From Coriobacteriaceae bacterium AF08-21 (GTDB taxonomy: Bacteria; Actinomycetota; Coriobacteriia; Coriobacteriales; Coriobacteriaceae), in NCBI GenBank assembly GCA_027687465.1, contig JAQCQR010000001.1, positions 1-64,000 on the forward strand: DNA of 64,000 bases. Reading direction: 5' to 3'. Numbering within the stretch: the stretch's first letter is position 1; each line of letters opens with the position of its first letter. The translations under genes and the position numbers were made by a program. Positions 30,137-63,749 of this stretch are shown piece by piece. Under the pieces are notes generated by a model. That model did no database searches, was not told the origin of the DNA, and was given only the letters and a program-made list of their open reading frames with translations.

Positions 30137-30736
30137 ATGTTCAACATTGTGCTGTATGCGCCCGAGATTCCGGCCAATACGGGCAATATCGGCCGCACCT
30201 GCGTGGTTACCGGCGCCCGCCTGCATCTGGTGGAGCCGCTGGGGTTTTCGCTCGACGACAAGACGGTGCGTCGCGCCGGCCTGGGCTACTGGCAAAATTT
30301 GGACGTGACGACCTATGCCGGCTGGGAGGATTTCCTTGCACGCAACGGCCTCTCCCCCGCCGACGAACGCCTGCATCTGCTGACCAAAAAGGCGCGCCGC
30401 ACCTATGCGCAAAGTACCTACCGCGACGGTGACTTTTTGGTCTTTGGCAGCGAGAGTTCGGGGATTCCCGAGCCACTGCTTGCCGCGGCGCCCGAGCGCT
30501 GCGAGCGCATCCCCATGTTGCGCGATTGCGACTCGCTCGAAAACGCCGACGCCTGGGAGGCCCACGAGGAGTCGCTCGGGCATACCGAGGACAGCCACGA
30601 AGCCATCCTTCGACAGGATATCTGCGGCAACTTCGTCGACCCGGACGACTACCGCATCAGTGCTCTCAACCTCTCCAACAGCGCCGCCATCGTCCTCTAC
30701 GAGGCCCTGCGCCAAACAGGCTTTTCGGGAATGTGA
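30137..30736 (+). CDS. trmL: tRNA (cytidine/uridine-34-2'-O)-methyltransferase
   Basis: 199 residues from ATG 30137 with AAGGAGA. SPOUT-fold features are NIVLYAPEIPANTGNIGRTC, FGSESSGIPEPLL, IPML and LNLSNSAAIVLYEALRQ. The enzyme methylates the wobble nucleotide of tRNA-Leu. About 40 acidic residues are inserted after IPML compared with the compact 155-residue family norm. The final Met codon and stop (ATGTGA) belong to the palindromic element at 30732-30760. Confidence 0.88.
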   Translation: MFNIVLYAPEIPANTGNIGRTCVVTGARLHLVEPLGFSLDDKTVRRAGLGYWQNLDVTTYAGWEDFLARNGLSPADERLHLLTKKARRTYAQSTYRDGDFLVFGSESSGIPEPLLAAAPERCERIPMLRDCDSLENADAWEAHEESLGHTEDSHEAILRQDICGNFVDPDDYRISALNLSNSAAIVLYEALRQTGFSGM

Positions 30737-30760
30737 CAAAGGAACTGTCCCTTTGTCACA
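30732..30760. repeat. Type B palindromic element, copy 1
   Basis: TGTGACAAAGG and CCTTTGTCACA arms around a short centre. The TGA stop of trmL lies inside its left arm, and the convergent uvrA-like stop is four bases beyond its right end. Confidence 0.85.
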
Positions 30761-30765
30761 TTCGG

Positions 30766-33258
30766 TTATAGGTAGCGGCCGGTGATGCTTGCGGGGCAGG
30801 CCACGATGTCGCCCGGTGTGCCGGCGCAGACGATTTGCCCGCCGGCATCGCCACCGCCCGGGCCCATGTCGATCACATAATCGGCGTTACGGATAAGGTC
30901 GAGGTCGTGTTCGATCACGACAACCGTGGCGCCCTTGGCGACGAGGCCGTCAAACACACTCAGCAACACCTGAACATCGAGCGGATGTAGTCCGATTGTG
31001 GGCTCGTCAAATACGAATACGGCATCATCCTGCACGCGGCCCATCTCGCTCGCGAGCTTAAGACGCTGCGCCTCGCCGCCCGAGAGCGCCGGCGTGGGCT
31101 CGCCGAGCGTCAGGTAGCCCAGCCCCAGGTCGTGAAGCGTCTGCAGGCGCGCCTGAACTTTCTTGAGTCCCACCGTGGCGTCGAGGGCCTCATCCACGCT
31201 CATATCCATAAGTTGCGGCAACGTGAGCAGGCTGCCGTCCTTGCCCTCGCGATGAATATGCGAAGCCGCGTCTGCATAACGCGAGCCACGGCATGCAGGG
31301 CAGACGATCTCGACATCGGGCAAAAACTGCACGTCAAGCGATATCGAGCCCGTGCCATCGCATGTGGGGCAGCGCAAGGCGCCGGTGTTGTAGCTAAAGG
31401 CACCCGCCTTATACCCTGCCGCCTTGGCCTTGGGCGTGCGGGCGAAGGCGCGGCGCAGCTCATCATGGATGTCGGCATAGGTCGCCACCGTCGAGCGCAC
31501 GTTGGCGCCAATGGGCGTGGCGTCAATCAGGTTGGCGCGCGCGATGCCCTCGGCATCGACCCAACGCACGTGCCTCGGCAGGCGCTCGCCAGCCGCTTGC
31601 GCCTTGAGCGCCGGGATGAGCGTCTCGAGCACCAATGTCGTCTTGCCCGAACCTGAAACACCCGTTACCGCGACAAGGCGGCCGCGCGGGATATCGACTT
31701 CGAGCGGTTTGACGGTATGGATGGCATCGGTCGCCATGCGGATATGGCCCAGATCGAACATTTCGTCGTCAGCCACCTGCGGGCGCAAGCGCTTGGGGTC
31801 CGAGTGCAAGAACGGCGCGATGCGGCTACCCTGCGATTGTTCGACCTCGCCCACCGTACCGGCGGCGATCACATGACCGCCGCCTGCTCCGGCAACGGGG
31901 CCCATCTCGACCAGATAGTCGGCTTCTGCCAGCACGCGCGTGTCGTGGTCAACAACAACCACGGTGTTGCCGTCATCCACCAGATCGCGCATCACGCCCA
32001 CCAGGCCATCGACATTGGCAGGATGCAAGCCGATCGAAGGCTCGTCCAGCACATACAGCACGCCCGTCGATCGGTTGCGCACCACGCGGGCAAGCTGCAC
32101 GCGCTGGCGCTCGCCCGTAGACAGTGTGGCACCGGCGCGGTCGAGCGAAAGGTAGTCGAGACCCAGGTCGATCAGGCGACGGGCCGTGCTCAAAAACGAA
32201 TCGCAGATGTCCCCGGCCATGGGCCGCATCTCGGTCGGCAAGGATGCGGGCACCCCACGCACCCACTCAATCGCCTCGCCCAGCGTCATGGCCGCCGCCT
32301 GCGCCAGATTGATGCCGCGCACCTGGGGCTGGCGCGCGGCCTCGGCAAGACGCGTGCCTCCGCAGTCACGACACGGCCCTTCGCGCAAAAAGCGTGCAAC
32401 GCGCTTGAGCCCCTTATCGTCCTTAACCTTGGCGAGCGCATTCTCGACAGTATAGACGGCGTTGTAATAGGTAAAGTCGAGCGGCGTGGCGCCCTCGCCG
32501 TTTTTGGGAACGTAGAGAATGTGCTTCTTAACCGCCGGGCCATGGAACACGATATCGCGCTCTTGGGGCGTGAGCTGGTTAAACGGCACGTCGGTGCGCA
32601 CCCCCATCTCGCCGGCCACCTGTTTCATCAGATCCCACATGAGCGTGCCCCAGGGAAGCACCGCGCCCTCGTCGATGGTCTTTGACTCGTCGGGCACCAG
32701 GCTCGCCTCGTCCACTTCGCGCATAACGCCGGTACCGCCGCAGGTAGGGCACGCGCCGCCACTGTTAAAGGCAAGGTCCTCGGCACCCGGCGCATAGAAC
32801 TCGCGCCCGCATGCGGGGCATGTGAGCGACAGGCCCGCGGCCACGTTAAGGCTCGGCTCCACACGCGTCCCGCAATGCGGGCACACGTGATGGGCGCAGC
32901 GGCTAAAGAGCAGGCGCAGGCTGTTGTTGAGCTCGGTCATGGTGCCAAAGGTCGAGCGCACGCCTGGCACACTAGGACGCTGATGCAATGCGAGCGCCGC
33001 CGGCACGTGCAGCACCTCGTCCACCTGTGCGTGCTCGGCCTGCGTCAGACGACGGCGGGTATAAGTGCTGAGCGCCTCCAGATAACGACGCGAGCCCTCG
33101 GCATACAGAACCCCCAGCGCCAGCGAGCTCTTGCCCGAACCTGACACGCCGGCAATGCCCACGAGCCTTCCCAGCGGAATATCGATATCGATGTCCTTAA
33201 GGTTATGGACACGCGCGCCACGTACTTCGATAGCGCTTGGTTGTTGCGACACCGTCAT
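30766..33258 (-). CDS. UvrA paralogue (class II UvrA-like ABC ATPase)
   Basis: 830 residues from ATG 33258 with GGAAGGGGA upstream, about 110 residues shorter than UvrA. Two ABC modules are visible: Walker A GVSGSGKSS and GVSGSGKTT, signatures LSTGERQRV and LSGGEAQRL, and Walker B DEPSIGLHP and DEPTIGLHP. CxxC pairs (CPHC, CPAC, CPTC) form the zinc modules. The shortness fits class II UvrAs, which lack the UvrB-interaction region and are linked to drug tolerance or DNA damage rather than canonical repair. It is downstream of an ATPase gene on the same strand. Confidence 0.88.
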   Translation of the reverse strand: MTVSQQPSAIEVRGARVHNLKDIDIDIPLGRLVGIAGVSGSGKSSLALGVLYAEGSRRYLEALSTYTRRRLTQAEHAQVDEVLHVPAALALHQRPSVPGVRSTFGTMTELNNSLRLLFSRCAHHVCPHCGTRVEPSLNVAAGLSLTCPACGREFYAPGAEDLAFNSGGACPTCGGTGVMREVDEASLVPDESKTIDEGAVLPWGTLMWDLMKQVAGEMGVRTDVPFNQLTPQERDIVFHGPAVKKHILYVPKNGEGATPLDFTYYNAVYTVENALAKVKDDKGLKRVARFLREGPCRDCGGTRLAEAARQPQVRGINLAQAAAMTLGEAIEWVRGVPASLPTEMRPMAGDICDSFLSTARRLIDLGLDYLSLDRAGATLSTGERQRVQLARVVRNRSTGVLYVLDEPSIGLHPANVDGLVGVMRDLVDDGNTVVVVDHDTRVLAEADYLVEMGPVAGAGGGHVIAAGTVGEVEQSQGSRIAPFLHSDPKRLRPQVADDEMFDLGHIRMATDAIHTVKPLEVDIPRGRLVAVTGVSGSGKTTLVLETLIPALKAQAAGERLPRHVRWVDAEGIARANLIDATPIGANVRSTVATYADIHDELRRAFARTPKAKAAGYKAGAFSYNTGALRCPTCDGTGSISLDVQFLPDVEIVCPACRGSRYADAASHIHREGKDGSLLTLPQLMDMSVDEALDATVGLKKVQARLQTLHDLGLGYLTLGEPTPALSGGEAQRLKLASEMGRVQDDAVFVFDEPTIGLHPLDVQVLLSVFDGLVAKGATVVVIEHDLDLIRNADYVIDMGPGGGDAGGQIVCAGTPGDIVACPASITGRYL

Positions 33259-33294
33259 CGCTCCCCTTCCTGTTAGCCGAACGTGGCAAAGGAA

Positions 33295-33323
33295 TGTGAC
33301 AAAGGGACAGTCCCTTTGTCACA
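33295..33323. repeat. Type B palindromic element, copy 2
   Basis: TGTGACAAAGGGAC and GTCCCTTTGTCACA are exact inverted arms around A. It lies between uvrA-like and the AAA ATPase gene, adjoining the TGA stop of the latter. Confidence 0.88.
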
Positions 33324-34442
33324 TCACTCGTGCCATAAAACACGATCGCGAATGTACTTGCCCAGCATAGGCACGCTAAACCGGACGAGACCGTATCCGG
33401 CGGCCTCGATGACGCGCTCGCGAATTAAGCTTGCGCGATATTTACTCGCCCAGCTCTGGGTGCGGTCGCAGCGCTCAATGATATCCGCCATGCGCGTCAG
33501 CTTGCCCTCGTCAACCGCCATAGCCTCGATAAAGAGGCGCTGTGGAGTGCGCAGCCCGTAATACAGAGGCGCGTCAACCGCTTCGTAGAACTCAGAGACG
33601 GCATCCGCATGACCAACCTCGACATCGCACCCTTCAATGACCTGCGAGCCACGCCGGACAGCAGACCGCCACATGTAATATCCCACCAGCTGAACCATAT
33701 AGGGATGTCCCATGCTCTTGTGCGCCGCAAGGTCCGCCGTCCCCGCATCAATGCAAAGACCAGCACATTCGACCGTCTGGATATATGAATCGCGCACCTG
33801 GGGCAAAGAAATCGCCCCCAACGTACGCTGCTGGGCGCGCCGCAAAAACGTCACGCTCGGCTCTTCGAGCAGATCGTCAACCATGCTGGGCAAGCCGGCA
33901 AAGACCAGCGCAAGACCACGCTGGTCGCCATCGGGCAAGCCCGTAGCATCCTGATCTCCCAGCACCTGCTGATAAAGAACGGCGAGAGTCGCCAGTTCCT
34001 CGATAGACGCAGATTGAGCCTCGTCAATCGCAAACAGAATACCCTTGCTTGGGCCGAGCTTCTTGAGACGTTCGTTGACCAGCCCTCGCAACGTCTCGCC
34101 TTTTGCCCGCGCCGCCTCAACCGACATCCGTCCAAACGATGGGCCAAACTCCATTGACGTCACAACGGGCTTATTCGAGCGGAGTGCGTCGGCCAAGCGG
34201 TCGCATAAACCAAGCGAAGCGGAATCGGAGACAACCGCCCATCCGCGCTCACTGGCCAGACGTTGCAGCTCCCGCAGGAGAACTGTTTTGCCACAGCCGC
34301 GGTTTCCTGTAATGAGCATGAGTCTGCCCGGCGCTCCGGCACCGTTATCGAGCCCCTCCTCAAAATCTTCGATGACCGACTCGCGACCGATGAGTATCGG
34401 AGGCCGCTTACCAGCCGTTGGCTTAAAGGGATTTGGATTCAT
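33324..34442 (-). CDS. AAA/STAND-like ATP-binding protein
   Basis: 372 residues from ATG 34442. An N-terminal ATPase domain has GRESVIEDFEEGL, Walker A GNRGCGKTV (about 47-55) and Walker B LFAIDEAQ, as in archaeal-type ATPases (PF01637/AAA_16). A C-terminal winged-helix-like region (about 270-372) could contact DNA. The function is unknown; such genes are often stand-alone or toxin-antitoxin-like. Its promoter region carries three helically phased repeats. Confidence 0.8.
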   Translation of the reverse strand: MNPNPFKPTAGKRPPILIGRESVIEDFEEGLDNGAGAPGRLMLITGNRGCGKTVLLRELQRLASERGWAVVSDSASLGLCDRLADALRSNKPVVTSMEFGPSFGRMSVEAARAKGETLRGLVNERLKKLGPSKGILFAIDEAQSASIEELATLAVLYQQVLGDQDATGLPDGDQRGLALVFAGLPSMVDDLLEEPSVTFLRRAQQRTLGAISLPQVRDSYIQTVECAGLCIDAGTADLAAHKSMGHPYMVQLVGYYMWRSAVRRGSQVIEGCDVEVGHADAVSEFYEAVDAPLYYGLRTPQRLFIEAMAVDEGKLTRMADIIERCDRTQSWASKYRASLIRERVIEAAGYGLVRFSVPMLGKYIRDRVLWHE

Positions 34443-34477
34443 GTCGGCCTCCTCGGATTGGCAAAGGCTAGCAATAG

Positions 34478-34508
34478 TTATACCAACTTATACCGAGTTA
34501 TACCAACT
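34478..34508 (-). promoter_or_regulatory. Three 10-bp phased TTATACC repeats before AAA ATPase
   Basis: TTATACCAAC, TTATACCGAG and TTATACCAAC follow one another at 34478, 34488 and 34498, exactly one helical turn apart. On the minus strand they read GGTATAA, giving overlapping TATAAC/TATAAG -10-like words. A factor binding one face of the helix, or self-regulation by the ATPase, is possible. Confidence 0.55.
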
Positions 34509-34511
34509 GAA

Positions 34512-34540
34512 TGTGATAAAGGAGCTGTCCCTTTGTCACA
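34512..34540. repeat. Type B palindromic element, copy 3
   Basis: TGTGATAAAGG and CCTTTGTCACA arms with one mismatch. It contains the stop codon of the Tet(M)-like gene (minus strand ATG TGA). Confidence 0.85.
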
Positions 34541-36539
34541 TGTGGCCGAAAAATTCCGCGTCGGCGGGGCGATAGGGGCGGAAGGTGGCGGGATCGATCT
34601 TTACGTGCGCCGCGGCGGGTACGTCGTACCACTTGACGGTATAGCCGGCGCCGTGAGAGCAAAAGACCGAATCGGGCGTGTTGGGCAGATCGGCCTCGGG
34701 CTCATAGGCGGCCGTCTCGATTACGCGCTCGGCATCATGGCAAGCCGCATAGCCGGCGAACTCCAGGTACAGATGACCGCGACCGCTCGTGTAGGCAGCC
34801 ACCTCCAGCGCATAATCCTGCACCTCGGATGCCGGCACGCGACCCACAAGCTTCGCCCGGTCTCCCGCCATCGTCGGCGGCTTGTACTCGGCGCCCATGC
34901 GCGTGGCATCCGAGAGCGCCCGGCCCACGCACTCCCCCGGCACCTCGAGCTCAAAGTGATACCACGGCTCCAGCAGCACGGCTGCGCCGACCTCACGCGC
35001 CTGCATCAAACCCTGGCGAATCGCGCGGTACGTGGCCTGGCGAAAATCGCCGCCCTCGGTGTGTTTGGCATGCGCGCGGCCGCCCGTAAGCGTAATGCGC
35101 ACATCGGTGATGGGCGAGCCGGTCAGTGCGCCCAGGTGATCGCGCTCCATGGCGTTGGTGAGTGCCAAACGCTGCCAGTTAAGATCGAGCTTGTCGGTCG
35201 AGGTCACGGTGCCAAACTGCACGCCCGAACCCGCTGGCAACGGCTCCAGGCGCAAATGCACCTCGGCATAGTGGCGCAGCGGCTCAAAGTGGCCCACGCC
35301 CTCGACCGGCTGCGAAATAGTCTCCTTATAGAGAATGCCGCCAGACTCAAACTCAACCGAAAGGCCAAAGCGATCGACCAACACCCGCTGTACGACCTCG
35401 AGTTGCACGGCGCCCATCAACTGCAAATGAATCTGCTCAAGATGCGTATTCCAGCTTACGCCGAGCATGGGATCTTCGTCCGCCAACTCAGTCAATGCTT
35501 TGAACACCGTGTGGACGTCGTGTTCGCCCGGAAGCACCGTATAGGTGAGAACTGGCGCAATGACGGGCGCATCGCACGCGGGTTCCGCGCCCAAGGCGTC
35601 CCCTGGGCGAACGTGCGCAAGACCCGTCACGGCACAAATACCGCCAGCGGCAACTTCTTGGGCAAGCTCATACTTCTCGCCGTTATAGATGCGCACCTGA
35701 TCGACCTTTTGCTCCCATGCCTCGGCACCGGAGCGCCCCTCGATCATCTGCTTTGCATGCAGCGTGCCGCCGGTCACTTTTACCCAAGCCAAGCGCTCGC
35801 CGCGATCGCCGCGGCTGACGCGATAGACGCGCGCGGCGAACTCCGGCGGCCACGCCCTCTCACGCATCAGCGCGCACATGCCATCCAGCAGCTCGCCCAC
35901 GCCCTGGTCCTTAAGCGCCGAGCCGGCAAAGCAAGGAAAGAGCCTGCGCTCGGCAACCATGCGCGAAAGCGTTGCGACGGAAAGCTCGCCTGTCTCAAGA
36001 AACTCCTCGAGGGCTGCCTCGTCCAACGCGGCAGCGTCCTCCCAAGCGGCACCGCCCGTCAGCAGTTCGTTGGCATCCAGACAGCCCTCGGAAAGACGCT
36101 GCCCAAGCTGTGTCAGTAAAACATCGCGGCCGGGATTCTCCAAATCGATTTTGTTGATAAAGACAAACGTCGGGATGTCATAGCGCGCAAGCAGGCGCCA
36201 CAAGGTTTCGGTGTGTCCCTGCACGCCGTCGTTGGCACCTACCACCAAAATCGCGTAGTCGAGCGCACGCAACGTGCGCTCTGCCTCGGCCGAAAAATCC
36301 ACGTGTCCGGGAGCGTCCACGAGCATGACGCGGGTATCACCGTGGTCGAACACGGCCTGCGACGAGAAAATCGTGATGCCGCGCTCGCGTTCGATAGCGT
36401 TGGTATCCAGGTGCGAGTCGCCGTCGTCCACACGGCCGCGCTTGCGAATGCGACCTGCGTTGAACAGCATGGCCTCGGCCAGCGTAGTCTTGCCGGCATC
36501 GACATGCGCCAAGATTCCAACGACAGCTTGCTTCGACAT
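34536..36539 (-). CDS. Tet(M)-like ribosomal-protection-type GTPase
   Basis: 667 residues from ATG 36539 with GAGGAGA. EF-G-family motifs are AHVDAGKTT, RERGITI, DAPGH and NKID, followed by EF-G-like domains II to V. The architecture and length match Tet(M)/Tet(O)/Tet(W) (about 640) and Otr(A) rather than EF-G (about 700). It may protect ribosomes from tetracycline or be a chromosomal housekeeping relative; resistance cannot be inferred from sequence alone. Its base composition resembles the neighbours, so recent transfer is not evident. The gene ends in ATG TGA provided by a type B element. Confidence 0.82.
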   Translation of the reverse strand: MSKQAVVGILAHVDAGKTTLAEAMLFNAGRIRKRGRVDDGDSHLDTNAIERERGITIFSSQAVFDHGDTRVMLVDAPGHVDFSAEAERTLRALDYAILVVGANDGVQGHTETLWRLLARYDIPTFVFINKIDLENPGRDVLLTQLGQRLSEGCLDANELLTGGAAWEDAAALDEAALEEFLETGELSVATLSRMVAERRLFPCFAGSALKDQGVGELLDGMCALMRERAWPPEFAARVYRVSRGDRGERLAWVKVTGGTLHAKQMIEGRSGAEAWEQKVDQVRIYNGEKYELAQEVAAGGICAVTGLAHVRPGDALGAEPACDAPVIAPVLTYTVLPGEHDVHTVFKALTELADEDPMLGVSWNTHLEQIHLQLMGAVQLEVVQRVLVDRFGLSVEFESGGILYKETISQPVEGVGHFEPLRHYAEVHLRLEPLPAGSGVQFGTVTSTDKLDLNWQRLALTNAMERDHLGALTGSPITDVRITLTGGRAHAKHTEGGDFRQATYRAIRQGLMQAREVGAAVLLEPWYHFELEVPGECVGRALSDATRMGAEYKPPTMAGDRAKLVGRVPASEVQDYALEVAAYTSGRGHLYLEFAGYAACHDAERVIETAAYEPEADLPNTPDSVFCSHGAGYTVKWYDVPAAAHVKIDPATFRPYRPADAEFFGHM

Positions 36540-36600
36540 GGCTCTCCTCTTATTGCAAGCCCACCGCACGCGGCAACGGGCATTCTCGTTCCACACTGGA

Positions 36601-36765
36601 TGATACAATTTACGGGCCGGCGGGCGAAGCGGGCCCTATCCCCCGACCGAGCTCATCGCCCCGCGTTGCCGCGCGGCGATTTTCGCAGGTTCGCGCCTTG
36701 CGAAAGCCGGCACCTCCCCTAACAGCGCAGCGACCAAAAATGGCCCCACCCGGGGCCATTTTCAT
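36601..36765 (+). ncRNA. Candidate structured small RNA
   Basis: TGATACAAT (36601-36609) has the extended -10 form. The DNA after it folds into successive hairpins: GGGCC/GGCCC (36614-36636), ATCGCC-C-CGCG/CGCG-C-GGCGAT with loop TTGC (36655-36680), and the directly abutting TTTCGCA-GG/CC-TGCGAAA (36681-36705). A terminator (36737-36762) follows. No ORF with a ribosome site fits. It could instead be the leader of the Tet(M)-like gene on the minus strand, so strand and existence are uncertain. Confidence 0.4.
36737..36762. terminator. Bidirectional terminator
   Basis: AAAATGGCCCC (36737-36747) pairs with GGGGCCATTTT (36752-36762). The minus-strand T run is longer, so it ends the GNAT gene, and possibly the candidate RNA on the plus strand. 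Confidence 0.82.
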
Positions 36766-36796
36766 GTACATGGATTGTTGATACGCGTCCTCGCTC

Positions 36797-37285
36797 TTAT
36801 GCCTCGCGCAGCCAGTCGAACGCAACACGCGGCGTGCCGTCCGACACATACACGACGCCGGCGCGCTCGAACCCCGCTTTCATGCTCGCGCCCTGCATGG
36901 GCAGGTTGTCCGCGTGCGTGTCGATACGCAGGTGGTCAGCGCGCGCCTTGGCAAAGGCAAACATCGCGGCCGCGATACCGTGCACGGTGCCGTCGGACGC
37001 CACGCGGTGCAGTACGGCGTACGGAGTGTCGCTACGCCACTGACCGTCCTCGATGACGTCATAGCACTCGTCCGGACCCGGTAAAAAGGCAAACGTCGCC
37101 ACCACGCGGCCGTCGACTTCGCACACGTAACTGCCACCAGCGGCAATATCGGCAGCCAACTGCTCGGCCGAAGGCGTGCCCTCGGGCCACTGCGTGGCGT
37201 TGCCATGCGCGCGCATAAAAGCGCGGGCCGCGTCATAGATAGCCATGACGGCGGGAATGTCGGTATCGAGGGTTTTTCTGATCAT
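36797..37285 (-). CDS. GNAT-family N-acetyltransferase
   Basis: 162 residues from ATG 37285 (GTG 37288 is an alternative), with GAGG upstream. The N-terminal IRKTLDTDIPAVMAIYDAARAFM and the acetyl-CoA-binding strand region VLHRVASDGTVHGIAAAMFAFA, which replaces the RxxGxG/A loop in this subfamily, indicate GNAT. C-terminal RIDTHADNLPMQ is also typical. The acceptor substrate is unknown. Confidence 0.85.
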   Translation of the reverse strand: MIRKTLDTDIPAVMAIYDAARAFMRAHGNATQWPEGTPSAEQLAADIAAGGSYVCEVDGRVVATFAFLPGPDECYDVIEDGQWRSDTPYAVLHRVASDGTVHGIAAAMFAFAKARADHLRIDTHADNLPMQGASMKAGFERAGVVYVSDGTPRVAFDWLREA

Positions 37286-37362
37286 CACGCGGCGACCTCA
37301 CGTTTATTGGTATCACTTTGATTGAGCAATGATACCAGCGTTTGAAGAGGGGCGCGAAGCAG

Positions 37363-37659
37363 ATGGGGAGCAAAAAGCGAGCCGCCTGGTCAAAGGCAAA
37401 GAGCGAGTTTTTGGGCGCTGCCACCGGCGGCGATATGAGCGATCTGTTTGCGCGCGAAGACGAGCGCCGCGACGCCCTGGACGCCGAGCGCGATGAAGCC
37501 TGGCGCTACAAGTCGTGCGAACGCAAAAACCGTTACGACACGCGCGCCGAGGCAGAGGCCGTTATGGCCGACTGCGAAAACCGCGGACGGCGCGGCCTGT
37601 CCTGCTACAAATGCGAATACTGCGGCGGCTGGCACCTGACGTCGCACCCTTGGAAATAG
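37363..37659 (+). CDS. Small Zn-ribbon-like protein
   Basis: 98 residues from ATG 37363; GAGGGG lies upstream at somewhat long spacing. A basic N-terminus and charged middle lead to CYKCEYCGGWHLTS, with Cys also at SCERK and DCEN. The CxxCGGWH ending is found in small actinobacterial proteins of unknown function, often thought to bind zinc and nucleic acid. It is divergent from the GNAT gene. Confidence 0.75.
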   Translation: MGSKKRAAWSKAKSEFLGAATGGDMSDLFAREDERRDALDAERDEAWRYKSCERKNRYDTRAEAEAVMADCENRGRRGLSCYKCEYCGGWHLTSHPWK

Positions 37660-37707
37660 ACCCCGCATCGGCACGGCACTGGCGAAGCGCCAGCCATCGT
37701 GCGGAAG

Positions 37708-38412
37708 CTACGGACGCGGCGGCACCAAAACGTCGTAGCGGACGGCCTTGCCCGCAAGCTGATAGCTCGGCTTAACGCCGGCAAGCAGCGGCCCCTTCAC
37801 CGGCCGCTTGATAACGACCTTGCGCGGCCGCGCCGCAAGCGCAGCTTCGACCAGCGTCTCCTCATCGGCGCACGGCTGTTCCAGATGGTGCAAAAGTTGA
37901 AACTTCTTTTTCACCGCCGCGCTCTTGGTGCGCTCGGGAAACATGGGGTCCAGATACACCACGTCGGGAGCGGTGAGCTCGCCCTGCCCGATCAGCTCGG
38001 CTGTATGGCGAAGGCCGGCAATGCTATCCTCGCCCGCATGTAAGCGCATGCGCGCCACGGCAGCCGCAAGCGCCGGATCATCTGCCGCGCGATCCAAAGC
38101 ATCCTTGAGGAGCGCCGCGATCACGCAATCCTGTTCATACAGATCGACGGTAAAGCCCGCGGCCGCCAGCAGCAGCGAATCCTCACCAAAGCCCGCCGTG
38201 GCATCAATCGCCCATGGGCGCTCGATGCCTTTTGTGCGCGCAACCTTTACCAGCAGCTCTTGCTGCAGGCGGCCCTGCTTGAGTCGTGGCAGCATGCGGC
38301 CAAAATCGGCGCGCAGTTCCATCGTGCCGTCGGTGAGCGTGAGGCCCTCGGACTTCCCGGTCAGCTCAAGCCCCGCGGCCCGAGCAACAGAAAAGGGATC
38401 GACGACGCCCAT
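37708..38412 (-). CDS. rsmJ: 16S rRNA (guanine-1516-N2)-methyltransferase-like
   Basis: 234 residues from ATG 38412 with AAGGAG five bases upstream. The SAM motif is DATAGFGEDS and the catalytic-site motif is YLDPMFPERTKSA, both hallmarks of RsmJ, which methylates G1516 of 16S rRNA. The C-terminal KVVIKRPVKGPLL is also conserved. Convergent with the Zn-ribbon gene, whose stop is about 50 bases away. Confidence 0.88.
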   Translation of the reverse strand: MGVVDPFSVARAAGLELTGKSEGLTLTDGTMELRADFGRMLPRLKQGRLQQELLVKVARTKGIERPWAIDATAGFGEDSLLLAAAGFTVDLYEQDCVIAALLKDALDRAADDPALAAAVARMRLHAGEDSIAGLRHTAELIGQGELTAPDVVYLDPMFPERTKSAAVKKKFQLLHHLEQPCADEETLVEAALAARPRKVVIKRPVKGPLLAGVKPSYQLAGKAVRYDVLVPPRP

Positions 38413-55490: not shown

Positions 55491-55970
55491 ATGTTTAGGC
55501 CCTTACGTCGAAAGAAACGCGCCATCACTGACGAGGAAGCGCGCGAGTTGCTCGCCACCTGTAAGCGCGGCGTCTTTGCCGTCAACGGCGATGATGGCTA
55601 CCCCTATGCCATTCCCGTCAACTACTTCTTTGACGCCGAGCACGACAAGATTTATTTCCATGGCGCCAAGGCCGGCCACAAGGTCGATTCGCTCAGGCGT
55701 GACGATAAAGTCTGCTTTACCGTTTACGGCAACGAGTGGTACAAGGACGGCGACTGGGCTCCTTACGTCATGAGCACCGTGGTCTTTGGCCGTTGCCGCC
55801 TGGTAGATGAAGCGCCTGCGTTTATCGAGGACAAAGTCCGCCAGCTCGCGCTTAAGTACTACCCTTCTGCCGAAGAAGTCGAGGAGGAAATCGCCAAAGA
55901 CATCAAGGGCGTCCAACTCTACGAGATTACGATTGAGCATCTCTGCGGCAAGCAGATTCAAGAAAAGTAA
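55491..55970 (+). CDS. Pyridoxamine-phosphate-oxidase-like flavoprotein (NimA type)
   Basis: 159 residues from ATG 55491 with AAAGGAAG. The split-barrel core has GYPYAIPVNYFFD, IYFHGAKAGHKVDSLRRDDKVCFTVYG and the later SVVVFGR-like strand. NimA-type members bind FMN and may reduce nitroimidazoles; the family also includes proteins of unknown role. Monocistronic with a terminator. Confidence 0.85.
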   Translation: MFRPLRRKKRAITDEEARELLATCKRGVFAVNGDDGYPYAIPVNYFFDAEHDKIYFHGAKAGHKVDSLRRDDKVCFTVYGNEWYKDGDWAPYVMSTVVFGRCRLVDEAPAFIEDKVRQLALKYYPSAEEVEEEIAKDIKGVQLYEITIEHLCGKQIQEK

Positions 55971-56002
55971 GCCCAAAAACAGATCCTGCAAATAGCAAAA
56001 TG

Positions 56003-56032
56003 GCTCGGTTCCAACCAGTATTGGAACCGAGC
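56003..56032. terminator. Bidirectional terminator
   Basis: GCTCGGTTCCAA (56003-56014) pairs with TTGGAACCGAGC (56021-56032). It separates convergent flavoprotein and kinase genes. Confidence 0.85.
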
Positions 56033-56039
56033 TATTTGT

Positions 56040-58231
56040 TTATGAAGCGTCGGCAGCTATGTGCGCAAGCGCCTCAACGAGATCCTGAGAACTCACGGGT
56101 TTGCTCAGATGCGCGTTCATGCCCGCCTCGCGCGAAAGCCTACGGTCGTCGGCAAAGGCATTGGCGCTCACGGCGATAATCGGCGTGGTCGCGGCGTCCT
56201 CGCGATCGAGCGCTCGAATCTGACGCGTGGCCTCAAGGCCATCGATGCCGGGCATCATGATGTCCATCAATACCACATCGTACTCGTGCAGCGCACTCGC
56301 GGCAAACGTCTCGACGGCAGACTCGCCATCTTTGACATGTGTCACGACGGCACCGGCGCGGTCGAGCGTAAACTGTGCGATCTCGGCATTCAGGTCGTTA
56401 TCCTCTACGAGCAAAACGCGCAGGCCCTGGAGCACGTCGCTGTCGCCTGCATCCACGCGAACTGCCTGGGGAATCTCGGAACCCTTGCACTTCTCAAACG
56501 GCAGGCAAATGGTAAACGTCGTCCCCTGCCCCAAGGCGCTCGTAAAGCTCATGGTTCCGCCCATAAGCTCGACCAACTGTTTGGCAATAGACGCGCCCAG
56601 GCCAGTTCCCGATGAAGCGCCTTCCACCTGTTGTTCCTCGCGGCTGAACGGCTCGTAGAGGTGCTGTTGAAACTCCTCGCTCATGCCAATGCCGTTATCG
56701 GCGATCGTGTATTCATAGACGGGGACACCGTCCACCGGCTCCACCTCGCGGCATGTCAGGCGAACATAGCCGCCCTGGCGGTTGTACTTGACGGCATTAC
56801 CGGCAATATTGAGCAACAGGCGCTTGAGGTGCGTCACGCTCACCCGGGCATAGGGATGATCAAGAGTCCGTTGGTCGCAGATAATTGTCACCAGGCGCTC
56901 CTCGGCCTGGCGCTCCAGGATATCGCACACCTCACGGTTGAGGGCCACCATATCTGTAGGCACGAGATTCAGGTCGACCTGCCCGCTCTCCAAGCGGCTC
57001 ATATCGAGTGCCTCGTTCGCAAGGTCGAGCAGCAGTCCCGACGCCGTCCAGATCTTTGAGCGGCACTCAGTCTGCTTTTGCAAGTCGTCCGCGTTGGCAT
57101 TGCCCACCTCGACCATACCGCGAATGCCGTTGATGGGCGTGCGCAGGTCGTGACTCATGCGACGCAGGAACTCCGTCTTTGCAGAGTTGGCAGACGAAGC
57201 TTCGCGCGCCGCTTTTGCCAGCTTGTCGCCATAGTCGCGCTCCTGCAGCAACAGGTCGGCAAAGCGTTGGCTCTCGGCGCGGCGGCGCACCAACACAACA
57301 GTGGCTATAACACCGCCGTAGAGTGCCAACACACTGGCAACAACAGCGGCAACAACCTCAAAGTAACGCTGCGCGGGAGCATAGGTGTACACGTAAAAAT
57401 CGCGCGCTTTACCAAATGTGCCCAGATACCACTCACCGCTGTCGTTAACCAATCTGACCTTACCAGCCAGGCAACGCTCCTTAATGCCGTTGACAACGAT
57501 GGCATCCGTCGCAGGCAAATCGAACACGCCCGACACGGCGGCTCAACAGCGTTGGTCGCAACGACCTTACCGTCGTTTTCGATCACGATATTGCCGCTAT
57601 CGATGGTCTCATAACCATCGAGCAAGCTCTGCAACTTGAGCGTATTGCTCGCGACCGCCTTGGCGCTCTGGTGCCTCACCGCGACAACGATGCCCTCACC
57701 GTCCGGCCGGGCCACGCAGCCAATGTCTGCGACCGAATCGTCCGCAAGCGTAATGCGAGCGGTATAGGACTTAAGCGGATGGGCTGCCACCTCCAGCACA
57801 GGCGCCTCTTTGAGATTCGCAGCGAGCGACTCGTAGCTCACGTTATCCGTCGAGGACTCGGACACCAAGTTGCCCGATGCGTCCGTCACGATCAGCGCTG
57901 TCACATTAAACTGATCAGCATATTGCTCCAACGTAGCGTTATCCGCCGAGCCGTCGCGTTCCATATCGCGCGCCGCCTCTCCGGCGATCTCCATAACGCG
58001 AATCAGGTTTTTGGTCGCATAGGCGCTGTTGAACGCATCGTAGGAAAGGCTCTGTGTCGCCACGTAATCGACAACGTCGGAAAAGCGCTGCTCGGCTTGG
58101 GCCGTCGTGTAACCGTAGCTCGTCATGCCGGCAGCAGCCGAGAGTGCTATCCCCAACAGGGCGGCAAGGAGCCATGCCAGGGCCGAACGGTCGCCCCGCT
58201 TCTCTGTGGTGTGGTCGGGTGCATCGATCAC
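56040..58231 (-). pseudogene. Hybrid sensor kinase split by a frameshift
   Basis: The N-terminal frame from GTG 58231 (overlapping the upstream lipoprotein stop) has a membrane helix and a Cache-like extracellular domain, ending IENDGKVVATNAVEPP. The continuation VSGVFDLPATDAIVV, one membrane helix, HisKA with MSHDLRTPIN, ATPase and receiver (LMDIMMPGIDG) are in another frame, after a TGA near 57545. One extra base around 57538-57546 would restore a protein of about 730 residues. No homopolymer marks the site and no ribosome site precedes the GTG at 57536, so a frameshift or sequencing error fits better than two genes. Unlike the kinase at 52644, its His is present. Confidence 0.8.
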
Positions 58232-59097
58232 GACAGGCCCTCCATATTCAAAAAGGGCGAAGGGTCATCAAAATACTTTGACACCAGGCGCTCCATGGTG
58301 CCATCGGCAAGCATTTCTTGGTAGGCATGGGTGAGCTTAACGTCGATGCCGCGTGTGTCGTTGATATCGAAAGCGGTGCCCAAACCAACCTCTAGCAGCG
58401 GCTCAGACAAAATGCGATACGTCACGCCATAGTCTTTTTCGTAGGTGAGCAGCGAGGACTCATGCGCGGCGATGGCGTCGACTAGGCCCTCGACAAGCGC
58501 CGGGTTCAGGTACGAGCGGTCCGAAAAGCTGTAGAGCTCCTTAATCTGCGGAACGTTTTCATTGGTGTGATTGAGCAGAATCGATTCGGGCTTGGTGGTG
58601 GACTGGACCGCCACGACCCTACCCTCAAGATCGGCAAGCGTGTAGATATCGCTTTCGGGATCGACAGCAACCACCTGTCGGCTCGCAAGGTACGGCCCCG
58701 CCCAGCGATACTCGCCTTCGCGGCCCGTCATACTAAAGCTGCCCATGACGCAATCGAGCTCGCCGCTCGCCAGCAGCTCTTTCTTCTTTTCCCAGTCGAT
58801 CAGCTGGTACTTTGGCTTGTAGCCAATGCGGCCCAAAGCCTCGGTCAAAATATCGACATCCAGGCCAACGATATCGCCGTACTCGTTGCTATACACAAAC
58901 GGTGAATAGAGGTCGCTGCCAACGTTGAGCGTCTTAAGGTTGTCGTCTTTGACCTGCGAGGCGGCTGCGCCTTCTGATGCAGACGCCGCGGCCCCATCAT
59001 TCAACCCGGAACAGCCAGCTATCGCCACGACAAAGGCGCCCACCACTGCAAGCGCAACAAACAACGATATGGCGGCCGAGCGACGGGGTCTTTTCAT
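58228..59097 (-). CDS. Solute-binding lipoprotein (SBP_bac_3) coupled to sensor kinase
   Basis: 289 residues from ATG 59097 with GGAG upstream; the longer frame to 59238 has no site. A signal peptide with lipobox AIAGC anchors the lipoprotein. The binding domain has NVGSDLYSPFVYSNEYGDIVGLDVDIL and ELDCVMGSFSMTGRE, typical of amino-acid binding proteins. Its stop overlaps the kinase start by GTGA. Since no permease is adjacent, it probably presents ligand to the kinase rather than to an importer. Confidence 0.87.
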   Translation of the reverse strand: MKRPRRSAAISLFVALAVVGAFVVAIAGCSGLNDGAAASASEGAAASQVKDDNLKTLNVGSDLYSPFVYSNEYGDIVGLDVDILTEALGRIGYKPKYQLIDWEKKKELLASGELDCVMGSFSMTGREGEYRWAGPYLASRQVVAVDPESDIYTLADLEGRVVAVQSTTKPESILLNHTNENVPQIKELYSFSDRSYLNPALVEGLVDAIAAHESSLLTYEKDYGVTYRILSEPLLEVGLGTAFDINDTRGIDVKLTHAYQEMLADGTMERLVSKYFDDPSPFLNMEGLS

Positions 59098-59238
59098 CGA
59101 GCTCCAGACGATCCTGTTTACAGACTCAAGAGCTGAATAATAGCAGACAAAACCGCGCTTGCGCTCAATGGTTACAGATGCTTTACCATACGGGGCCTTC
59201 CAGCCAATCTGGCAGACAGCCCCGCATGCAGCGCTCAC

Positions 59239-60453
59239 TTACCGTGCGTTAAAAACGTAGCGGTCCAAGCGGTCGCACGCCTCCCTTATACGCGAAAGCG
59301 GCAGCGCCAGATTCACGCGAATGTGGCAAGGTCCATGGAATGGACGGCCGTCCTGATAGCCCACGCCCACACGCGCCCCCTCGTCGAGCAGCCACTGAAT
59401 ATCGCAGCCATGCTCGCGGCACCACTTGGTGCAGTCCAGGAACACCATGTACGTGCCCTGCGGGCGCGAATAGGACACGCCCTCAAAATGCTCGTCCACG
59501 TAATCGCAGAAGTAGTCAATGTTGCCCTCGATGACCTCGTTGAGCTCATCGAGCCACTCGTAGCCCTGCGGCTGGTAGGCACCGATAAGCGCGTGCATCG
59601 AAAGGACATTCATCTCGTTGTAGTGGGTCTTATTGGACACGGCGCTCACGCGGTCGCGCAGCGTCTCGTTATAGATGATGTGGTAGCTGCCGACCAGGCC
59701 CGCAAGGTTAAACGTCTTGCTCGGCGCATAGAGGGCGACCGTGCGCATGCGGGCATCCTCGCTCACCGACTGCGTCGGGATATGCTTGTGACCCGGCAGG
59801 ATGATGTCGGACCAGATCTCATCCGAGATCACCACGCAATCGTGCTGGCGATAGATGTCCATGGCGCGTTCAATCTCGTCGCGCTCCCATACGCGCCCGC
59901 AGGGATTGTGCGGCGAGCAGAACACCGCGGCATGAACGTGGTTTTGGGTGAGCTTGCGTTCCATGTCCTCAAAGTCCATGCGCCACACGCCCTGGTCGTC
60001 GAGCTTGAGTGGGCTGTGGACAATGCGATAGCCCGCCGCTTCGATGGACTTGGTAAAGCCGATGTAGGTAGGGCTGTGGACCAGCACCGCATCGCCTGGC
60101 TGGACATACGCGCGCAGGGTCGACACGACACCGCCCAGCACGCCGTTCTCGTAGCCGATATGTTCCGGGAGCAGACCCTCGACGCCATTACGGCGGCTCT
60201 GCCATTCGATGATACGGTCGAAGTACTCGGGGCGCAGATCGAAATAGCCAAACATGGGATGCTGGGCGCGCTGAATGATGTACTCCTGGACCGTGGGCAC
60301 CGTGGCAAAGTTCATGTCCGCTACCCACATGGGGATGCGGTCGAAGCCCTCGTCGGGTGCGTTCGGAGCCATGCCGGGGATTTCGCCCCAGGAGTCAACG
60401 GCGATGGCGTCCATGCCGTGGCGGTCGATAAGCGAAGTAAAGTCGTATTTCAT
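59239..60453 (-). CDS. MalY/PatB-type PLP-dependent C-S lyase
   Basis: 404 residues from ATG 60453. Fold I PLP enzyme with YENGVLGGVVSTLRAYVQPGD, CSPHNPCGRVW, SDEIWSDI and the PLP-lysine motif APSKTFNLAG. MalY/PatB members cleave cystathionine or cysteine S-conjugates and are often annotated as aminotransferases. The MalY-like length and HNPCGRVW support lyase function. Monocistronic. Confidence 0.88.
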   Translation of the reverse strand: MKYDFTSLIDRHGMDAIAVDSWGEIPGMAPNAPDEGFDRIPMWVADMNFATVPTVQEYIIQRAQHPMFGYFDLRPEYFDRIIEWQSRRNGVEGLLPEHIGYENGVLGGVVSTLRAYVQPGDAVLVHSPTYIGFTKSIEAAGYRIVHSPLKLDDQGVWRMDFEDMERKLTQNHVHAAVFCSPHNPCGRVWERDEIERAMDIYRQHDCVVISDEIWSDIILPGHKHIPTQSVSEDARMRTVALYAPSKTFNLAGLVGSYHIIYNETLRDRVSAVSNKTHYNEMNVLSMHALIGAYQPQGYEWLDELNEVIEGNIDYFCDYVDEHFEGVSYSRPQGTYMVFLDCTKWCREHGCDIQWLLDEGARVGVGYQDGRPFHGPCHIRVNLALPLSRIREACDRLDRYVFNAR

Positions 60454-60565
60454 GCTGAGCTCCCGTGCAAAGCGGATTGTTTTGGTAGGCGTTATTGTCC
60501 ACCAGCGTGGGCGGTTTTGGCATGGGGTTTGGCGTTGAATTTGGCGGGCGCCGGCGAATGGCCGG

Positions 60566-61303
60566 CTAATCCCGCGCGTCGTTGACGGCGGCTACCGTCA
60601 ACCTGGTTCCATCAACCGTAAAGGATATGTCAAGCCCAGCGTAAGCCAGATGGTAGACGCGGTTTGGCTCGTGTTTGCTACCCGCGCGGCGCGGATCCTG
60701 GCGAAGGACCTCGACCAACCCGGGGAGCTTTGTGGGCGGGACCATCTCCTGCAGCGCTTGCGGGAACTCGATATCGAGCTCTTGCCACGGCGTATCCTCA
60801 ATCCAGCCGCCCGTTGCATCCGGGTGGCAGTCCGCAAACGGAATGTAGGGCTTAATGTCGTAGATGGGCGTGCCGTCGCGCAGATCGGCTCCCAGCACAT
60901 GAATGATGGGACCGTCGTCGGTAAGCTCCACGCGGTCGAGCTTGACGCAGGTGAGACCGATAGGATTAGGGCGAAACGGACTGCGTGTGGCAAACACGCC
61001 CACGCGCTCGGCCCCGCCCAGGCGCGGCGGACGCACGGTCTTCGACCACTTGGCGTTGGTGCCGGACCTGTCCTGCGCCTTGGCATCGGCGGCGATGTCT
61101 TCCGCCGTGCCGCCGGGCGTTCCGTTTTCAAAGCGCCAGAGCAGCCATAGGTGAGAGAAGGAGTCCAGGCCCTCAACTGCCGCGTTAAAGGCAAATTCCT
61201 GCTCAAAGACGATGCGCCCCTCAAGATGAGGCGCCAAAAAGCTGTTGCGCGGAATGCCGAACTTCTGCGGCAGGTCGGTATGTATGTGTGCAATAGGTTC
61301 CAT
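60566..61303 (-). CDS. trmO: tRNA(Thr) A37 methyltransferase TrmO-like
   Basis: 245 residues from ATG 61303 (ATG 61312 is an alternative). TsaA/TrmO motifs are FGIPRNSFLAPHLEGRI, DSFSHLWLLW, GVFATRSPFRPNPIGL and YDIKPYIPFADC. It uses SAM to methylate t6A37 of tRNA. A TACAAT -10 box lies only seven bases before the start and there is no ribosome site, suggesting leaderless translation. Confidence 0.88.
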   Translation of the reverse strand: MEPIAHIHTDLPQKFGIPRNSFLAPHLEGRIVFEQEFAFNAAVEGLDSFSHLWLLWRFENGTPGGTAEDIAADAKAQDRSGTNAKWSKTVRPPRLGGAERVGVFATRSPFRPNPIGLTCVKLDRVELTDDGPIIHVLGADLRDGTPIYDIKPYIPFADCHPDATGGWIEDTPWQELDIEFPQALQEMVPPTKLPGLVEVLRQDPRRAGSKHEPNRVYHLAYAGLDISFTVDGTRLTVAAVNDARD

Positions 61304-61443
61304 GCCGGTCATTGTACGGCACTGGTGCGCGGGCGAGGGGCCGCGATTCCCGCTCATCGCCATCTGCATGCAACCAACGGTTGCTTGGAAGGGTGCCTGC
61401 CGCCGCGTATGCTTAAGCCATCAACCAGCAGAAAGGAGCCGTT

Positions 61444-62271
61444 ATGGCCTTCGCAGAAAAGCTCATCGCCGTCCGTCGCGCCCATCACCTAACCCAAGAG
61501 CAGCTCGCCGCCAAGCTCTTCGTCACACGCCAAGCCATCAGCCGTTGGGAGCGCGGTGAGGTCACACCGGGCATCGACATGATGAAGCTCATTGCCGCTG
61601 TGACCGGCGAGCCCCTGTCTCACCTGCTCGAAATGCCCGAGCACTACTGCCAGAGCTGCGGCATGATACTCACGCCCGACGACTGCGGTACCGATGCTCA
61701 CGGCGCCACGACCGACCATTACTGCAAGTGGTGCTACGACCACGGCAAGTACACCTATGAGACCACGATGGAGGCAATGATCGAGGACTGCGCTCCGCGC
61801 CTGGCGCAAAACACCGGCATGTCGCTCGACGAGGCTGTCTCGCTCATGGGTGCCGTGCTGCCGCAACTGGAGCGCTGGCGTACCGTGCAGGAAAACGAGG
61901 AGCGCTACGGCGCCGAGGCACGGGCGCGCTATGGCGATGAGGCTATCGATGCAGCAAACGAAACGTTACTGGACATGGATCCTCAGACATGGAACGACAT
62001 GAAAGAACTTGAACGCGCTATTCTGGGTCAGCTCTCGATTGCCATGGGCGACGGGGATCCCAAGAGCACCGAGGCCCAAAAACTTGTTGCGATGCATCGC
62101 CGTTGGATCAGCCTCAACTGGGGACACGAGCCCCAGGACGAAGCGTATCTGGGCCTCGCTCACGGCTACCTTGCCGACCAGCGCTTTGTCGACTACTACG
62201 ACAAACCCTGCGGCACCGGGGCCACGGCGTTTTTGGTTCAGGCCATCGAGTCGTCGCTGAATCGCGCATAG
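61444..62271 (+). CDS. XRE-HTH/Zn-ribbon/TipAS fusion regulator
   Basis: 275 residues from ATG 61444 with AAAGGAG. Residues 1-65 are an XRE HTH (LTQEQLAAKLFVTRQAISRWERGEVTPG). Residues 68-110 form a Zn ribbon (YCQSCGMIL...YCKWCYDHGKYTYE). Residues about 190-275 match the TipAS antibiotic-binding globin-like domain (EAQKLVAMHRRWISLNW, AHGYLADQRFVDYYD). TipAS usually follows a MerR HTH; here the reader is XRE. It may sense thiopeptide-like or other antibiotics. The glutaredoxin gene follows by 51 bases on the same strand. Confidence 0.85.
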   Translation: MAFAEKLIAVRRAHHLTQEQLAAKLFVTRQAISRWERGEVTPGIDMMKLIAAVTGEPLSHLLEMPEHYCQSCGMILTPDDCGTDAHGATTDHYCKWCYDHGKYTYETTMEAMIEDCAPRLAQNTGMSLDEAVSLMGAVLPQLERWRTVQENEERYGAEARARYGDEAIDAANETLLDMDPQTWNDMKELERAILGQLSIAMGDGDPKSTEAQKLVAMHRRWISLNWGHEPQDEAYLGLAHGYLADQRFVDYYDKPCGTGATAFLVQAIESSLNRA

Positions 62272-62322
62272 ACCGCGGCGGCTTTGGGTATCTCAATCGA
62301 AACCTCAACCGATTGGAGACCC

Positions 62323-62568
62323 ATGGCTACTGATCACGAGCTTGTGTTGTACGTTATGACCGGCTGCCCGTATTGCATTAAGGTCAAGCGCTTCCTGGCC
62401 GATAACGGTGTGACCATCCCCGAGCGCAACATCTCGACCGACCCCGATGCCGAGCAGACACTCATCGCCATCGGCGGAAAGCGCCAGGTTCCCTGCCTGT
62501 TCATCGACGGTAAACCGCTCTACGAGTCGAGCGACATCATCGCGTGGGTGCAGAAGAACCTGCTCTAG
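62323..62568 (+). CDS. Glutaredoxin-like protein
   Basis: 81 residues from ATG 62323 behind TTGGAG. Active-site CPYC, TVPxxF-like RQVPCLFIDG and final helix ESSDIIAWVQ. It is a monothiol or dithiol glutaredoxin (NrdH/GrxC-like) for electron transfer. Possibly cotranscribed with the XRE-TipAS gene. Confidence 0.9.
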   Translation: MATDHELVLYVMTGCPYCIKVKRFLADNGVTIPERNISTDPDAEQTLIAIGGKRQVPCLFIDGKPLYESSDIIAWVQKNLL

Positions 62569-62690
62569 CACGCGCACTGCGGCCAGTTCGCGCCAACCGA
62601 GCCGAACCCATACGAACCAAACATGTACGCCAGCATCCAAAGTCGACATTTTCCGACATCTTTGGATGCTGACGTACAGCTTTTCAATCT

Positions 62691-62744
62691 AGTCATTGGG
62701 GACGTTCTTGAATGACTAGTCGTTAAAGAACGTCCCCAACGACT
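62691..62744. repeat. Type A palindromic element, copy 2
   Basis: Arms of 19 bases (62691-62709, 62726-62744) with one mismatch: AGTCATTGGGGACGTTCTT and AAGAACGTCCCCAACGACT. The centre contains GACTAGT, as in copy 1 at 103-154. The dus stop lies inside the right arm at about 62743. Confidence 0.85.
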
Positions 62745-63705
62745 AGTAGCCACAAAAGCGGGCTATAGGCGCAAGTGGCTGCTCGCGAAAGACACGCTCG
62801 ACGGCGGCACGGTATTCGTCGACCATTTTAGTCTTGCGTACGAGCTTGTGAACGGTAGCGGGGTCGGCGAAGGCGCATTTGGCGTAGAACCACCACTCCT
62901 TCATGCGAAAGACCGCGTTGCCGCCAATCTCTTCCGCATAGGCCGCAAACAGCATGTCATGGAAACGCTGCAGTTCGGCTGCCGTGGCAGCAGGGCCACC
63001 CTTAACCATGCGAGCCAGCGCGGGGTTCGCGAGCAAGCCGCGTCCCAGCATTACATGGTGCGTGCCGGGATAGGCCTCCACCAGCGCATCCATGTCCTCA
63101 AGATCAAAGATGTCGCCGTTATAGGCCACGGGGAATGGCGCGCGATCCAACGTCTCGCCGTAAAACGCTTTGCGCGGCGAACCCGTATAGCGATCCCTCT
63201 GTACACGCGGGTGCACGATCAGCTCTGTCAACGGCATGCGGCAGTACAGATCGAGCACGCGCCCGTATTCGTCGTCACTCTCCAACCCCAGCCTGGTCTT
63301 TACCGACACCGGCAACGGCGACCGCTCGCACACATCGCTCAGGAACACCTCGAGCTCATCGAGGTTGCGCAGAAAGCCCGACCCTTTGCCCTTCGCGACA
63401 ACCGTCCCCGAGGGGCAGCCAAGGTTGAGATTGACCTCGCGGTAGCCCATGTCGGCGAGCACGTGTGCTGCCCACACAAACTCGTCCGCATTCTTGGACA
63501 TAAGCTGGGGAACGACATTAAGTCCCTGGTTATTGGCAGGATCGATCTCCTTAAACGCCTTGCCGCCAAAGCGGTTTCCCACCCGCGGCGGCGGCAAAAA
63601 CGGCGTGTAATAACAATCGAGCGCGCCGAAGCACTCCGCATGCACGCGACGGAACACATGCCCGGTAATCCCCTCCATAGGGGCCAGCGATAAATACATC
63701 AACAT
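62743..63705 (-). CDS. tRNA-dihydrouridine synthase
   Basis: 320 residues from ATG 63705. TIM barrel with APMEGITGHVFRR, PQLMSKNADEFV, NLNLGCPSG (catalytic Cys), VKTRLG, VHPRVQRDRYTG and YNGDI. The FMN enzyme reduces uridines in tRNA D loops; DusA/B/C subgroup not resolved. The stop codon abuts the type A element. No strong ribosome site precedes the start. Confidence 0.9.
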   Translation of the reverse strand: MLMYLSLAPMEGITGHVFRRVHAECFGALDCYYTPFLPPPRVGNRFGGKAFKEIDPANNQGLNVVPQLMSKNADEFVWAAHVLADMGYREVNLNLGCPSGTVVAKGKGSGFLRNLDELEVFLSDVCERSPLPVSVKTRLGLESDDEYGRVLDLYCRMPLTELIVHPRVQRDRYTGSPRKAFYGETLDRAPFPVAYNGDIFDLEDMDALVEAYPGTHHVMLGRGLLANPALARMVKGGPAATAAELQRFHDMLFAAYAEEIGGNAVFRMKEWWFYAKCAFADPATVHKLVRKTKMVDEYRAAVERVFREQPLAPIARFCGY

Positions 63706-63720
63706 CCATTCTCAAATCAA

Positions 63721-63749
63721 TGTGACAAAGGGACTGTCCCTTTGTCACA
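63721..63749. repeat. Type B palindromic element, copy 4
   Basis: TGTGACAAAGGGAC/GTCCCTTTGTCACA perfect arms around T. It contains the TGA stop of the LysR remnant at 63745-63834, again as ATG TGA. Confidence 0.88.

Follow-up and report, generated by a model that had tools for sequence, protein, structure and literature searches.

A symmetrical 31-bp palindrome at gene 3' ends and at the seams of variable gene modules in Collinsella, probably a REP-type repeat

The window, that is, the whole stretch of 64,000 nucleotides that was analysed, belongs to a Collinsella-like genome whose nearest relative among the genomes compared (G001) has 41% of the sampled words in common with it. It contains four copies of a palindromic element, the full unit of which is the 31-bp sequence ATGTGACAAAGGGAC-W-GTCCCTTTGTCACAT with an arm layout of 15+1+15. 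The copies and the genes beside them, called with a codon-score script and not with a published gene finder, are the following.

30137..30736, + strand: trmL-like gene (PF00588; TIGR00185 at 162 bits, under the cut-off of 190.6)
30731..30761, no strand: element copy 1, holding the ATG TGA of trmL on the + strand and lying 4 nt from the UvrA-like stop on the - strand
30766..33258, - strand: UvrA-like ABC protein (Pfam; TIGR00630 at 706.5 bits, under the cut-off of 729.8)
33283..33293, + strand: half-copy GTGGCAAAGGA, left of copy 2
33294..33324, no strand: element copy 2, with one base in common with the AAA ATPase stop
33324..34442, - strand: AAA_16 ATPase (Pfam)
34511..34541, no strand: element copy 3, left arm degenerate, holding the ATG TGA of the Tet(M)/EF-G-like gene
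34536..36539, - strand: EF-G/Tet ribosomal-protection-like GTPase (Pfam; NF012153 at 423 bits, far under the cut-off of 775), not a confirmed resistance gene
62743..63678, - strand: dihydrouridine synthase, dus (Pfam)
63720..63750, no strand: element copy 4, between the dus start and a short ORF ending in ATG TGA
63837..63863, no strand: variant palindrome GGGGCAAAAGGGCAGTCCCTTTGCCCC, both arms altered

The half-copy and the variant palindrome were absent from the initial annotation, which had reported the four copies at 30732, 33295, 34512 and 63721. These four are genuine: when the spacer between the half-sites is corrected to 7 nt, there are four matches in the window and none in 100 shuffles. 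The single-base spacer originally given has no match in the window as written. The 15-nt arms pair without mismatch around one central base in two of the four copies, and the copy at 34512 has one mismatch (TGTGATAAAGG). Lone half-sites with up to two mismatches are mildly above chance (21 against 10.8 expected); it is paired half-sites, not single ones, that exceed chance. The ends of the element are mostly AATGTGAC / GTCACATT and symmetrical, and the unpaired GTAG or CGTC tag that marks one end in the tagged-REP superfamily was found on neither end. As had been described, ATG TGA ends trmL, the Tet(M)/EF-G-like gene and the short ORF at 63.7 kb, with the TGA lying within the element, and the TGA of the AAA ATPase adjoins the copy at 33294, with which its last base is common. 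The short ORF had been labelled a LysR remnant. This label was rejected: the ORF has no Pfam match, and in a tblastn search over the collected loci the sole match above chance level was one identical stretch (L017).

The half-copy at 33283-33293 would fit the scar of a lost segment, since genome G003 has at this position a full copy, then a segment with an acetyltransferase-like gene (named by eye), then a second copy. Other repeats also occur in the window. An inverted, BIME-like pair of ACCTGCCAATAAGGGACAGGTTTATCTTGGCAGGT-type REPs lies at 19948-20049, is similar to the palindromes next to the L326/L329 RAYT, and is followed at 20071-20181 by a TPP riboswitch, the sole match of an Rfam search of the window. 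Two inverted pairs of a different repeat, with core GGGGACGT and AGTC...GACT-like ends, lie at 62689-62746 and 103-154.

Placement relative to genes was examined on 139 distinct copies, which reduce to 55 distinct junctions with the element among 277 gene junctions; the null was uniform placement in the same gaps (5000 draws). At 35 of the 55 junctions the element is no more than 15 nt from a gene 3' end, where the null gives a mean of 14.4 and a maximum of 25, and a 3'-end bias is therefore supported; enrichment at gene 3' ends, the point on which the initial annotation had staked its reading, was thus borne out. A 5' end is that close at only 4 of the 55. At tandem junctions the element is nearer to the 3' end in 25 of 34 cases (p=0.009), and it occupies 16 of 47 convergent junctions against 5 of 41 divergent ones (p=0.023). 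The stop codon is overlapped at 15 of the 55 junctions and abutted at one more. The proposal that the element supplies the stop is literally true of nine of these 15 overlaps, where ATG TGA lies inside the element, whereas the other six have one base in common with it. Read from the sequence, each strand has only one of its three frames stopped by the element. That its symmetry lets it end frames coming from both sides is illustrated by copy L010 of G001, which gives TGA to two convergent genes.

The effect on the encoded proteins is slight. Among 30 trmL loci (L191-L220), of which two were unreadable (L203, L210) and nine lack the element, it stands at the stop in 16 (up to 4 mismatches), in one case as a variant giving TAA (L196); in L202, L205 and L212 a copy is found only further downstream. 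TrmL of G014, which has no element there, ends in ...GM-TAG, and the terminal Met is native because this element-free orthologue already ends in GM. The Tet(M)-like protein, which in G014 ends in FFGR, has FFGHM where the element is present. The AAA protein ends in HE with or without the element, which is missing there in 19 of 21 sequences, and at the C41 locus the protein terminates in K in a relative (L259) that lacks the element at this gene end, and in QM or AM in those bearing it. Across these four genes, comparison with element-free relatives thus shows an exchanged stop and a gain of 0-1 residue. The earlier description of proteins that take their stop and their final Met from the element is right as to the ATG TGA, but the proteins are barely changed. 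The element also accounts for the terminal Met of some Collinsella proteins.

No empty site was found among the collected loci. The 44 apparent empty-site matches all stemmed from shifted alignments at a single site. L007, at first known from only one genome, was tried as an empty-site test and set aside: its flanks diverge 3-4 nt past the stop in most of 22 genomes, with unrelated sequence straight after the stop in most relatives, so that the target site is not readable. In L413-L434, unrelated sequences begin in different genomes 3-4 nt past the same TAG; the alternatives are the element, a TTACGCGGTTTTCCAAACCGCGTAA hairpin with the sequence following it, or a terminator-like hairpin.

The predicted RNA fold is a single hairpin, at about -21 kcal/mol in the consensus and -11 to -18 in two window variants. 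Of the 44 copies lying within 40 nt of a 3' end, only 3 are followed by a T-run (U-run in the transcript), and the element is therefore no ordinary terminator. An intrinsic terminator, defined by hairpin plus U-run, was accordingly rejected as the general reading, and the combined transcriptional stop proposed earlier is unsupported in that sense. The stem itself stays paired. In 194 distinct instances, a set admitting five mismatches and perhaps containing other palindrome families, mismatch pairs fall at complementary positions 47 times against 17.9 expected, and 43 of them are Watson-Crick. The subset with exactly two mismatches is cleaner and gives 6 of 14 complementary (p=4e-5); instances from related species are not independent in either count. 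These paired changes would be expected under selection on the stem, but equally under template-switch correction of a quasi-palindrome. At L255-L258 and other loci, behind gene 1 of the variable block described below, a large hairpin GTCACAACATTCGA...TCGAATGTTGTGAC stands directly before the element; it occurs at two places of the same genome and is perhaps a second repeat or terminator family.

The exact core is present in 22 of 43 genomes of the genus at 3-13 copies each (none in the reversed control), and G001 has 18 sites with at most three mismatches (again none in the control). Among named genomes, 65 copies were found on 63 stretches, most of them from Collinsella (C. aerofaciens and others of the genus); the remaining carriers are Olsenella, Thermophilibacter, an Atopobiaceae MAG and a further MAG that bears the label Clostridia. 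In the order as a whole, 25 of 197 genomes match the arm pattern TGTGACAAA-N(9-20)-TTTGTCACA, the control none. With its 31 bp the element falls within the 20-40 bp of REP palindromes in the broad sense, and like REPs it is interspersed, multi-copy and mostly extragenic; only two of the copies inspected (up to 6 per site) lie inside a called ORF, L030 and L036. According to PMC2817692, REPs usually exceed 100 copies per genome. The element stays below this abundance in G001 at up to three mismatches and, as exact copies, in the genus.

REPs are associated with RAYT transposases, and the initial annotation had suggested looking for one. PF01797 transposases, IS200 types included, are indeed present in 37 of the 43 genomes, but none at the loci examined lies beside a full copy of the element; two half-site matches (L107, L121) are all that was found. 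G001 was considered as a case of a RAYT beside the element and rejected, its single Y1 match having no copy nearby and a decayed HUH motif. Several RAYT lineages of the genus are nonetheless flanked by palindromes of their own, with GGGAC (mostly) or GACAGG cores. The RAYT of G041 and that of G030 stand between TGGGAAAATAGGGACTGTCCCTATTTTCCCA-type palindromes, which agree with the element in their 31 bp and in the GGGACWGTCCC core. Palindromes of the D family (L110, L112) match the element in length and core, and the TAG that ends the RAYT of L110 falls within one of them. Among genomes without the exact core, G014 is closest by TrmL (81%). Its only PF01797/Y1 match has an intact HUH motif and an ORF open up to a TGA near the C-terminus, which the protein comparison scores as an in-alignment stop, and is flanked by same-arm repeats, (A)ATGTGACAAA...TTTGTCACAT(T), with the middle AAGTCGACAGGTTTAT. 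This genome has 20 exact-arm copies, and at 5 of the 8 sites examined the repeat lies at a 3' end. The same-arm repeat of G130 is at a 3' end in none of 7 sites read (three lie 35-48 nt away), and the one RAYT of that genome has no same-arm repeat alongside.

Other REP families in the collected loci also differ in their placement within 15 nt of a 3' end: D in 7 of 9, F in 3 of 4, B in 1 of 1, E in 4 of 11 and G in 0 of 9. At the end of trmL, another REP family (CTGCCATTAGGGGACGG...) is found in place of the element in G002, G019, G021 and G032, and in G019 this family is also present at the Tet(M)-like stop.

One RAYT lineage, group K (71-100% identity), follows the distribution of the element. 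Of the 22 genomes with the exact core, 21 have this group (the exception is G031), as against none of the 21 without the core; beyond the group, full-length matches reach at most 41%, and one fragment of 47 aa 51%. This co-occurrence may be a single-clade effect, and none of the group K loci has a full element copy alongside. A representative (L126) matches PF01797 at 41.4 bits (cut-off 23) and contains the motif WCLMGNHVHL; its match to NF047646 REP_Tyr_transpos, 42.6 bits, is under the cut-off of 80. The HUH motif is lost in G001, G021, G032, G033 and G034. The ORF stays open despite this loss in five genomes (L016, L330-L333), which suggests that group K without HUH may retain a non-catalytic role.

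Copies of the element lie at the seams of variable gene modules, as seen both by association and at individual junctions; the initial annotation, whose reading is partly supported, had missed this link. When a G001 query spanning three copies is compared with close relatives, the alignment breaks at the copies in most of them. Among 19 genomes the gene order is modular: with [A] for a copy, <1 [A] 2> stands against <1 [A] <14-15-16-18 [A] <13 [A] 2>, and 3> [A] <19 [A] <4 against 3> <4, while G008 has <1 <13 2> and no copy. In G026 the left flank of the first copy is joined to the right flank of the last and the intervening module is absent, as an exact copy-to-copy deletion would leave it. 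The interval from trmL to the Tet(M)-like gene ranges from about 3.8 to 9.3 kb across 20 genomes. A 287-aa gene and its segment, placed between two copies in other genomes, are missing from between trmL and the UvrA-like gene in G001, G003, G004, G005 and the window, which have a single copy in their place. In G019 (L300), one module between trmL and the Tet(M)-like gene holds a resolvase (PF00239) next to a copy.

The association was also counted, on loci picked for carrying the element, so that the counts of neighbour change are biased. In the general set, a 3' end that bears the element in both genomes has changed neighbour in 10 of 24 cases against 10 of 74 without it (p=0.007); the excess shrinks when gaps are restricted to at least 40 nt (10/24 against 10/55, p=0.047). 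Where only one of the two genomes has the element, the neighbour is changed in 8 of 10. For 5' ends the counts are 5 of 19 with and 13 of 73 without. The C41 set alone gives no excess (2 of 7 with and 10 of 17 without, for 3' ends and gaps of at least 40 nt), and the trmL set is too small to judge.

Taken together, these observations are best read as follows, with a probability of about 0.65: the element is a REP-type non-autonomous repeat of one Collinsella species group, spread in the past by a RAYT. The spread would most likely have been effected by a Y1/HUH transposase of this kind acting on the folded single strand. Insertions lie mainly just behind stops, and they probably survive there because the stop is replaced without damage to the protein; in the ATG-TGA register, the stem itself carries the stop. 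A stable RNA hairpin at the end of translation may shield 3' ends or slow terminating ribosomes, roles that have been reported for E. coli REPs and are proposed here in place of transcription termination because the U-run is usually missing. Since the element is symmetrical, any two copies could pair in either orientation, and modules might be gained or lost at the copies in this manner. A bolder version, which is tentative and rather doubtful, regards the palindromes as orientation-free joints behind stops, between which modules are precisely gained and lost, integron-like but without an integron. If so, the joint would double as a stop codon, and every fusion would close its frame cleanly.

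Three other explanations have to be weighed against the REP-type reading. The paired changes in both arms and the excess at convergent over divergent junctions are what a dedicated bidirectional terminator or mRNA-3'-end hairpin, selected at operon ends and not mobile, would produce, but such a device is unlikely in view of the rarity of the U-run, the lack of the exact core in 21 of 43 congeners and the different REP family at the trmL end of four genomes. The modules bounded by the element at both ends and present or absent between species, the more frequent change of neighbour at 3' ends with the element in both genomes, and the resolvase gene of the one G019 module recall the gene + attC layout of integrons, in which a dedicated enzyme exchanges cassettes at the palindromes. 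This origin is improbable, however: the modules point in either direction, a resolvase is present in 1 of 21 intervals, site 3 comprises 21 copies grouped by common flanks of which the six inspected share one layout, and ordinary recombination or replication slippage between repeats suffices. Least credible, and already disfavoured, is a binding site for a regulator. It is brought to mind by the TGTGAC/GTCACA ends, the TGTGA...TCACA half-sites of which presumably resemble a CRP site, but the half-site spacing of a CRP site is much shorter than that of the element, the sites lie behind genes and hardly ever near 5' ends, and the arms drift in pairs.

Searches of the open-licence literature by sequence, by RAYT with Actinobacteria and by Collinsella with REP found no description of this element family. 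That REPs supply stop codons is already known; what is new here is the symmetrical GGGAC-core family, which adds to the REPs of a common gut genus beside several RAYT lineages. What most deserves further work is the seam pattern, and with it the idea that REPs behind stops act as seams of gene exchange can be put to the test. The minimal mobile elements and Correia repeats of Neisseria likewise show alternative gene modules between conserved genes with repeats nearby; here, in contrast, the seams fall at the palindrome itself.

The closest known system is that of REPs or REPINs with their RAYTs. The element resembles these as a short, interspersed, extragenic palindrome clustered at gene 3' ends, and the RAYTs of the genus are flanked by palindromes of the same core, that of G014 by same-arm repeats; it differs in its few copies, its symmetry, the lack of an unpaired tag and the lack of a RAYT alongside. 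As recounted in PMC12306157, E. coli REPs less than 16 nt from stop codons down-regulate translation, and the element, characterised here by sequence, is in the same distance class from the stop. PMC3733652 describes REPs near or overlapping coding regions, GTAG-tagged ones often giving a TAG stop to the flanking ORFs. The likeness to these GTAG REPs is that the repeat gives neighbouring genes their stop; the difference is that the stop of the element is a TGA in a symmetrical stem with no GTAG/CGTC tag. With the TGA in its stem, the symmetrical element can serve both flanks, and it provides a clean case of one repeat that can act as the stop codon for the genes on either side of it.
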